Assembly: GCF_900142675.1 (NCBI RefSeq)
Contig: NZ_FRBS01000001.1
Location: forward strand, 620,001-684,000
Length of the DNA: 64,000 bases
Source of the DNA: Shouchella rhizosphaerae
Lineage (GTDB): Bacteria; Bacillota; Bacilli; Bacillales; Bacillaceae_D
Direction: 5' to 3'
Every line of letters starts with the position of its first letter. The stretch's first letter is position 1. A program made the translations under genes and the position numbers. Shown piece after piece: positions 50,393 to 52,262 of the stretch. The notes beneath the pieces are model-generated. The model saw only the letters and a list, made by a program, of their open reading frames with translations. It had not been told where the DNA came from and made no database searches.

Positions 50393-50431
50393 AAACCCCC
50401 ATGCCTGATGATAAATGGGGCATGGGGGTTT
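50393..50431 (-). terminator. Terminator of the T-box-controlled MFS gene
   Basis: Thirteen-base stem AAACCCCCATGCC/GGCATGGGGGTTT, then TTTCTTTG on the minus strand, 43 bases after the MFS stop. Confidence 0.9.
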
Positions 50432-50473
50432 GTGACATCTTCTTTTTTATAACGTTGTTTATGTTGCCCTTTT

Positions 50474-51727
50474 CTAATTGGTATCAGAGGCTTGCAGTGC
50501 ATGTTCCTCAGAATAATATGCTGCTTTCGATGGTTGTGTATTGCAAATAAACAATATTATTGTCACAACAAACATAAGGAGGCTTCCGCACACAAGGATG
50601 AAGCGAATAGAGATGAATTCAGCCATCATTCCAAAAATGATCGTGCCAATAATGATGAAAAACGCCTCGATGAAACCATAAACACTACCAACACGCCCCA
50701 TCATGCTAATTGGAACATTATTTTGGTAAAATGTGTAAAATCCTGTATTCATAAACGCCATTGAAAATGATAAAGTAAAAAAGCCAATTGCTGCCGTTAA
50801 AAAAATAGTTGAAAAAGCATATATGATATAACCGACGGAAATCATCAAGGCTCCAAGACCGATTAGCCAAGAGGTAGCTACTTTTTTAACAATGAGTATG
50901 TTTACAAAGGAGCCTACAATGATGCCAACACCCGCAATACTTACTAGTAATCCATAATCTCTTTCTGATAAAGAAAGCACTTTTGTTGAAAATGCCGCTT
51001 CCAATGAATCGATCGCAGTTGCCAAAACCATTACCCCACTAAATAGGAAGTAAATGACCATAATATACACGTGTTTACGACTAAAATCTACGACTAATTG
51101 CCAATCAAGTTTTAAGATCTTCAAGCTTATTTTTTCTACTTCCGCTTCCATAACATCATCTTTTTCAAGATTAGGCATGAATAATGTGAGTAGTGCTGAT
51201 AAAAACAGAGCGATGGCATTCATGTATACCGCAAAATTGGGGGTGCCAATCATAAACATCATCCCTGCAATAGCAGGCCCAATAACAAATGCCCCAGAAT
51301 CGATGAAGCTTCGAAGAGAATTAAACCGTTTTCTTTGGTCCCGTGGGATTAACTTCGTAATATAAGTCATGGATGTAGGCTCATACATGGAACTAGCTAT
51401 ATTTATTAAGAAGACAATGCCGTATATTGCCCAAAGAGAGGATAATGAAGGAAGTACAGCAATAAACACTGCTTGGAATATAGCGCACCATACCATAAGG
51501 TGCTTTTTATTTAATCGGTCAATTAGACTCCCTGACCAAAAGGTGGTAAACAATGCAGATAAAGCGCGAAGTATATATAGACCCGAGACAGCCATTACGC
51601 CCATCCGGTCAAGAACAATTAAATTTAATGCGATAAAATACACCCATTCTCCTATACTGGAAATGCCAATACTAGACAATAAAATGGACGGGTATTTCCA
51701 CGACTTTATAAACTTTTTTATACGCAT
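50474..51727 (-). CDS. MFS transporter under T-box control
   Basis: 417 residues, 12 helices. The sequence resembles the MFS group that includes macrolide and siderophore exporters (LIDRLNKKHLMVWCAIFQAV as the motif-A loop, FNSLRSFIDSGAFVIGPAIA at helix 5). AAAGGAGTGG precedes the ATG at 51727; an in-frame GTG four codons earlier overlaps the ribosome site. It lies behind a full T-box leader, so expression should follow the charging level of one tRNA. An amino-acid or peptide-like substrate is inferred from that. Confidence 0.88.
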   Translation of the reverse strand: MRIKKFIKSWKYPSILLSSIGISSIGEWVYFIALNLIVLDRMGVMAVSGLYILRALSALFTTFWSGSLIDRLNKKHLMVWCAIFQAVFIAVLPSLSSLWAIYGIVFLINIASSMYEPTSMTYITKLIPRDQRKRFNSLRSFIDSGAFVIGPAIAGMMFMIGTPNFAVYMNAIALFLSALLTLFMPNLEKDDVMEAEVEKISLKILKLDWQLVVDFSRKHVYIMVIYFLFSGVMVLATAIDSLEAAFSTKVLSLSERDYGLLVSIAGVGIIVGSFVNILIVKKVATSWLIGLGALMISVGYIIYAFSTIFLTAAIGFFTLSFSMAFMNTGFYTFYQNNVPISMMGRVGSVYGFIEAFFIIIGTIIFGMMAEFISIRFILVCGSLLMFVVTIILFICNTQPSKAAYYSEEHALQASDTN

Positions 51728-51766
51728 TTTTATTTCCACTCCTTTGAAAATCTAAATTTGGAAAAT

Positions 51767-52070
51767 AAAAAAACTCACCCCCAAGACTATTGTCTTGAGG
51801 ACGAGTTGTTGCGCGCCGTGGTGCCACCCCAGTTTGGCAATATGTCACCATATTCCCCTCATTAGGTACGGTATGAAGTCCATACGTATACCCTAGCTCT
51901 ATAACAGGAGCTCCTGTCACACTATCACCTACATGGGATCCAATGTGCCGCTCTGAGGCTTGCTTCCAACCATTCCTCCTTACTCCTTTTCACCAACTGG
52001 AGCTCTCTTTGAAGAATTCCTGATTGTACTCTTCTCTTCATCGCATTTTTTTGATTGTCGCTTAATGAAT
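51767..52070 (-). promoter_or_regulatory. T-box riboswitch (tRNA-sensing leader) of the MFS gene
   Basis: On the minus strand the leader shows, in order: AGTA (52030-52027) and its S-turn partner GAA (51966-51964) of Stem I; the AGAGAGC...GTTGGTG distal-loop sequence near 52010-51990; the T-box core GGGGTGGCACCACGG (TGGCACCACGG at 51826-51816); and a 14-base terminator stem (51805-51774) followed by seven T. TGGC predicts a tRNA with discriminator G. Specifier candidates are AGC (Ser, fits discriminator G) or GCA (Ala, fits the position after GAA); unresolved. A -10 TATGAT lies at 52084-52079. Confidence 0.92.
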
Positions 52071-52262
52071 GTTAGACAATCATAGCAAATCTTCACGTGG
52101 GAAGTAAAGTACTTTATACGTCAAATTATCCTTGTTTCAAGTGAATGGTCGTCGGTGGTATCCCCCACTGCAACAAGGTTTAGCTTGTTCCTGTCGCAAA
52201 GTGGAAAATTGGATGGGGCCTCTTTCCCTTTGTTGTTTGTTTTAGACCATATATAGCGCTGC

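Follow-up and report, generated by a model that had tools for sequence, protein, structure and literature searches.

The window analysed here (the whole stretch of 64 kb) carries on its minus strand, at 51767-52050, a genuine T-box, and comparison with related leaders argues that this is, very probably, a transcriptional T-box which is specific for tRNA-Gln(UUG) and controls a single MFS gene. The leader RNA is an ordinary T-box; its interest lies in the pairing with the MFS gene and in the spread of this pair. Judged from the same comparisons, the specifier is CAA, glutamine, one base further on than the GCA read in the original prediction. Both the glutamine specificity of this normal T-box and a partnership between T-box and exporter-like MFS gene over many genera are well supported by sequence comparison.

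The T-box leader and its parts

The T-box family RF00230 is the only Rfam family that scores over its cut-off in the whole 64 kb window. Its covariance model matches the minus strand at 51794-52050 over the full model length (1-219) with 101.9 bits (E 3.8e-22), the gathering score being 93 bits. The original prediction had placed a T-box before an MFS gene and had proposed this alignment as a check; the score above the threshold bears it out, and the AGTA, AGAGAGC and GAA motifs, the GGTGGCACCACGG core and the terminator all lie where they had been located from the letters. Besides the score, the leader shows a Stem I with AGTA/GAA loop and distal motif, and a UGGN antiterminator that is mutually exclusive with the terminator.

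All features lie on the minus strand. A promoter-like site (TTTACT-18-TATGAT, the second hexamer being preceded by TG) is found at 52079-52108 by a consensus scan that is weak alone, with 7 sites in the region against a mean of 8.3 in shuffles; DNA similarity with distant genera reaches 52115 and thus takes in this site. The leader extends from Stem I to the terminator (51767-52050, i.e. the RF00230 match plus the terminator down to 51767). The 5' strand of the specifier (S-turn) loop contains AGTA at 52027-52030, located by motif and aligned to the AGUA of the model, and is followed by AGAGAGCTCC at 51999-52008, the distal Stem I motif with its helix, which was located by the RF00230 alignment and by motif and is 95.2% paired in 42 related leaders. 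The 3' strand of the loop, GAA-G-CAA-G, occupies 51959-51966 according to the RF00230 alignment, motif and conservation, and within it the codon CAA (Gln) lies at 51960-51962. Further downstream are the Stem IIA/B region with an AGCU/AGCU pseudoknot (51895-51917; 88.0% of cells paired by pair counts), the Stem III hairpin (51839-51854; 97.9% of cells paired, double changes in 7 of 9 pairs) and the T-box sequence with the 5' side of the antiterminator (51816-51831, from the RF00230 alignment and motif; helices 100% and 97.0% paired), whose UGGC for the tRNA acceptor end is at 51823-51826. The intrinsic terminator, with 16 pairs, -21.2 kcal/mol and a T tail, lies at 51767-51807 (97.6% of cells paired) and excludes the antiterminator.

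Behind the terminator follows the single, NorA-like MFS transporter gene, identified by Pfam at 50474-51727, with its ATG at 51725-51727 and a Shine-Dalgarno sequence AAAGGAG at 51739-51745. The probable end of the transcript is a hairpin with a T run 3' of the gene, at about 50393-50428, read by eye and absent from the list of the terminator scan; the next gene encodes a methyltransferase.

Covariation supports the helices of the leader. For 42 related leaders, 43 pairs drawn by hand were compared with shuffles: double-sided changes occur in 24 of the 43 pairs (mean of the shuffles 12.4) and in 126 cells (29.6 in the shuffles). One helix as drawn (columns 208-212) failed in these 42 leaders, with 29.8% of cells paired. 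The pairs of the antiterminator and the IIA/B pseudoknot are 95.0% paired, with 29 double-change cells versus 4.2 in shuffles.

The specifier codon and its register

Within the host genus, 11 of 13 genomes have a T-box, recognized by motif, immediately upstream of the best MFS match, and six of these 11 T-boxes score over the Rfam cut-off; in a twelfth genome (G008), a T-box precedes an MFS copy that the search recovered in two pieces. At the level of the order, 212 of 397 genomes contain an MFS match (loci were taken among the matches listed). The search of the order gave 30 loci and 60 further matches among the matches listed, the latter chosen by rank for the first 40 or so and otherwise by choice; in all, 127 upstream stretches were examined. 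A strict T-box core is found in 106 of the 127, and one leader (L158) was dropped, as it starts at the edge of its stretch. The columns of the remaining 105 leaders were aligned without requiring CAA. The three codon columns are then nearly invariant (C 104 and G 1; A 105; A 105), the base before them varies (C 42, G 31, A 25, T 7), and the two columns behind show G 92 and A 13, then C 59, T 21, A 17 and G 8. The bulge reads UGGC in 95 of these leaders and UGGU in 10.

A strict core is lacking in 21 stretches: five of them retain CAA in register, one (L134) has CAA with a C behind it, and 15 show none. The latter are nine more distant relatives with 33-39% identity (L033-L041), three remnants (L086-L088), and L025, L144 and L156, in which no trace was seen; overall, the leader is absent or decayed in L025, L086-L088, L133, L144 and L156. 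In a second set, the best 80 of 525 named loci, 70 have the strict core, all 70 with CAA and a bulge of UGGC (61) or UGGU (9); two of the other ten keep CAA with an altered core, and eight do not show CAA. When 20 of these named loci were run against Rfam, 17 scored over the cut-off. By title, the 70 belong to Bacillus, Lysinibacillus, Sporosarcina, Priestia, Peribacillus, Metabacillus, Halobacillus, Oceanobacillus, Fictibacillus, Paenibacillus and Paenactinomyces. Some genomes occur in both sets, and the counts of the two are not independent.

Some individual loci deserve mention. The sole exception to CAA in the 105 leaders, L137 (G362), precedes an MFS relative and has the specifier GAA (Glu) with a UGGU bulge; it may possibly represent a natural change of specificity from tRNA-Gln to tRNA-Glu, two tRNAs that GltX charges. 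In L280 (Anoxybacillus rupiensis), what appears to be the end of a transposon-type gene stands in place of the 5' portion of the leader, and T-box core and terminator remain. About 500 bases with repeats separate T-box and MFS gene in L158 (G330). Paucisalibacillus globulus (L214:586-1470) has two CAA T-boxes in tandem, the first before an apparently decayed MFS copy, and the T-box at L056:16-235 would have CGC (Arg) as its specifier in this register; judged by eye, the gene behind it may encode an acetyltransferase.

The register was calibrated on T-boxes with recognizable genes. The host genome contains 20 T-boxes at E <= 0.001, 12 of them over the cut-off; the 19 others together with 28 from relatives gave 47 calibrating T-boxes, whose genes were named by eye from the first residues of the proteins. 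In this set, zero or one base separates the expected codon from a preceding GAA or GGA. The window leader reads GAA-G-CAA-G-CCTCA-GAG, i.e. CAA lies at one base plus five before the [GA]AG of Stem I. This is the place of the expected codon in 36 of the 47, the others being at one plus three (four: two hisS, and two serS with short leaders), at one plus six (one, glyQ) or missed by the pattern (six, of which five are one plus five by eye and proB, L014, is ambiguous, with one plus four as a possibility). The one-plus-four register, which a Lys reading would need, is absent from the 41 caught by the pattern. Ten sources were given to Rfam for alignment, and of the nine host T-boxes aligned, seven have the expected codon at the model position of CAA; in ileS, codon and GAA have an A in common, and hisS does not fit this position. 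In the register of T-boxes with named genes, the window leader therefore has a glutamine and not a lysine codon, CAA standing here where the asd and lysK sisters described below have AAA.

These sisters share the scaffold of the MFS leader. In Paenibacillus cellulositrophicus, a search of plasmids revealed a sister leader upstream of asd whose specifier is AAA, and blastn with this leader gave matches in 104 of 398 genomes of the class, from which 30 loci and 20 of the longer remaining matches were taken. L339, which shows CAA and has no core match, was left out, so that 49 leaders remain. In the fixed register, AAA precedes asd in 20 of 20 cases and class I LysRS (lysK) in 5 of 5, and CAA precedes GlnRS (glnS) in 8 of 8 and MFS genes in 16 of 16. 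Because C or A in the first position follows the gene in these sisters and the next frame gives AAG everywhere, the CAA/AAA frame is taken as the register. The genes were sorted by sequence signatures, three of the 16 MFS genes by eye; the window's own leader (L321) is among these 16, as is at least one genome already counted in the sets above (G120). All asd and LysRS sisters and seven of the eight glnS sisters (all but L311) come from one bacterial family (f50), and thus represent few independent events. Six sister proteins passed the NCBIfam test (one asd, three glnS, two LysRS by TIGR00467); the three glnS proteins score 583 to 613 bits with TIGR00440 (cut-off 425.8), one of them being 0.8 bit short of a second model. 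The class I LysRS genes behind AAA T-boxes are those of L326, L329, L332, L336 and L340, two of the five NCBIfam-tested. The glnS T-boxes (L311, L315, L316, L318, L319, L320, L322, L327) agree with the MFS leader in scaffold and in CAA but control GlnRS and have the bulge UGGU in all eight; UGGU is likewise found in all asd and LysRS sisters, and UGGC in 13 of the 16 MFS sisters. One GlnRS gene, that of L311 (TIGR00440, 612.9 bits), belongs to a genome of the host's own order (G068) and was possibly acquired.

These results have to be weighed against lysine, the assignment with precedents in the literature. If the T-box read AAG, one base further, the MFS protein would be a lysine permease; Table 1 of Wels et al. 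2008 lists an MFS gene of B. anthracis under Lys, its Table 2 names BH0807 a lysine-specific permease (PMC2494555), and AAR is kept in 105/105 MFS leaders. In this frame, however, there would be no constraint on the conserved C, and a pyrimidine would follow the codon in 80 of 105 leaders, where a purine is favoured according to a passage of PMC7583486. AAG would also stand in every sister, so that lysK and glnS would be indistinguishable, and the true lysine genes on the scaffold (asd 20, lysK 5) have A where MFS and glnS have C. The host has a tRNA-Lys(UUU), but with no CUU anticodon among the 64 tRNA genes found, AAG lacks a Watson-Crick partner there. We consider lysine very improbable and, by the comparison of AAA before asd/lysK with CAA before glnS/MFS, refuted. 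Least probable of all are alanine (GCA) and serine (AGC), the two readings given in the original prediction: their letters are present in this genome, but they are not kept in the 105 relatives, where the first base of GCA varies freely and AGC falls with it, and their register fits neither the sisters nor the calibrating T-boxes, glyQ at one plus six excepted.

With CAA as the preferred specifier, the conflict that had been seen between codon and bulge disappears; the codon had been misplaced. The prediction of a discriminator G from UGGC holds insofar as the three host genes for tRNA-Gln(UUG) have G73, which matches UGGC, but the cue is weak in general and was rejected as a deciding one, as seven of eight valS T-boxes (L001, L183, L184, L191, L193, L196, L202) have UGGC despite A73 in the host tRNA-Val, and the glnS sisters have UGGU.

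The MFS protein and its probable exchange between genera

The MFS protein is of the drug-exporter kind named in the original prediction, NorA-like in both sequence and fold. Pfam assigns MFS_1 (PF07690; 1.2e-30) and MFS_3 (PF05977; 2.9e-17), both over the cut-off; with the H+ antiporter model TIGR00900, the protein reaches 113.8 bits against a curated cut-off of 319.6, and it is not filed there. All seven solved-structure chains matched by sequence are NorA. In a fold search with the AlphaFold model (pLDDT 83.0, pTM 0.82), NorA takes ranks 1, 2 and 5, LmrP rank 3 and MdfA rank 15; AmpG, SV2A, a galactonate symporter and VMAT2 are also among the neighbours, the TM-score of VMAT2 being above that of NorA. 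The drug-proton antiporters NorA, LmrP and MdfA share their fold with the protein, and NorA is also weakly similar in sequence, but identity over the fold alignment is only 16-17%. All 13 aligned MFS proteins have the GP of helix 5, which we take to be the antiporter motif. From sequence and model, the protein is probably an exporter, and most likely a proton-coupled one of the NorA/LmrP/MdfA type.

The distribution of the gene suggests exchange. MFS identity is 89% to Shouchella clausii and S. tritolerans and 96% to another genome of the genus. In Peribacillus cavernae (L207, with the coordinates of G244), the MFS protein is 88% identical versus 82% for GatB, and in Halobacillus karajensis (L209) 84% versus 79%; two genomes of the same genus, G012 and G005, have only 46% and 45% for MFS, with GatB at 92% and 91%. 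At the DNA level, similarity to L207 (87%) covers 50460-52115 of the window and that to L209 (85%) 50471-52115, with a sharp stop at both ends, and the shared stretch comprises promoter, leader and gene. It is likely, on this pattern, that these three form one cassette which was exchanged between genera; old paralogues with losses are a possible alternative. Five plasmid or large-replicon records encode an MFS relative, and four were taken for reading: three have a CAA T-box with strict core, the fourth (L288) has CAA by eye and an altered core, and one of the four is typed as mobilizable. A search of a phage collection gave no match for the cassette, and no defence-system model was matched. 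Among 332 flanking frames of at least 90 residues, the neighbouring genes gave little hint of a substrate, the widest shared group occurring in 7 of 80 loci, by title Lysinibacillus.

Two further views accept glutamine and differ in what the switch would do. The MFS protein might import glutamate, glutamine or a peptide, so that starvation would raise uptake; T-boxes are common before amino acid importers according to parts of Wels et al. 2008 (PMC2494555), and symporters occur among the fold neighbours. All sequence-matched chains being NorA, the presence of NorA, LmrP and MdfA in the fold ranking and the invariant GP speak against it, however, and the apparent exchange and the plasmid copies suit a resistance gene better; we regard an importer as unlikely, at perhaps a third of the weight that we give to export. 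That the leader is a relic without control of its gene would agree with the decayed leaders of L086-L088, L258, L260 and L268, but every part is intact in this genome and compensatory changes are frequent among relatives, which makes a relic highly improbable.

Charging of tRNA-Gln and the meaning of the switch

The tRNA response of the window leader is one that we infer from its pairing partners. The CAA specifier would pair with the UUG anticodon, and the UGGC bulge with the GCCA at the 3' end of uncharged tRNA-Gln. Held by this pairing, the antiterminator would let transcription enter the MFS gene. With a charged tRNA, the aminoacyl group would block the switch, and the terminator would form, with the MFS gene off. 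In the host genome, GatB scores over its cut-off (610.8 bits) and a profile search found no GlnRS over the cut-off; GltX would thus load tRNA-Gln with glutamate first, amidation coming second. T-boxes sense aminoacylation sterically according to a section of PMC7583486, and Glu-tRNA-Gln should therefore count as charged. Since GatB is present and no GlnRS is found over the cut-off, the switch should report the loading of tRNA-Gln with glutamate, and not glutamine itself. The signal would be a failure of this loading, by low glutamate or a blocked GltX, and we infer that the switch is a reporter of failed glutamate loading by GltX.

As an RNA, the leader does not differ from other RF00230 T-boxes in parts, order or switching logic, but its specificity belongs, with Lys and Glu, to the least common ones in the TBDB, whose description, as far as consulted, also weighs three frames (PMC7778990). 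Judged by description, the MFS T-box of B. anthracis (Lys) and that of BH0807 in B. halodurans (a lysine permease), which appear in the tables of Wels et al. 2008, are probably of this family, being from Bacillales with an MFS gene or permease under a T-box. In the parts of that study considered here, the specificity was lysine and transporter T-boxes were held to be lineage-restricted, whereas our comparisons point to glutamine and many genera; the legend of its Fig. 6 uses one colour for Pro or Gln (PMC2494555). An MFS gene is also under T-box control in the operon thrS - ArsR regulator - MFS of some Bacillus, where its role is called uncertain in the text seen (PMC12452182), but by that description the T-boxes are tandem and the operon includes a synthetase and a regulator, unlike the cassette of the window. 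We found no paper that assigns Gln to this MFS T-box, and an earlier Gln call elsewhere in the literature is possible.

If glutamine is right, a widespread T-box would move from 'Lys' or unassigned to Gln, with glnS versus lysK on one scaffold as a natural control. In contrast with the lineage restriction proposed in 2008, T-box and exporter-like gene remain associated, and apparently move as a pair, in many genera. A more tentative and rather doubtful proposal is that of a mobile relief cassette, in which a natural inhibitor of GltX or of GltX-GatCAB would switch on its own export by hitting its target; if this were true, the T-box would sense the mischarging step in Bacillales without GlnRS, and relatives in which this scaffold precedes a GlnRS gene (such as L311) would possess the matching bypass. 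In any case, the leader offers a direct test case for tRNA-Gln sensing by a T-box where GlnRS is lacking, as steric sensing would mean that Glu-tRNA-Gln, too, switches the gene off.
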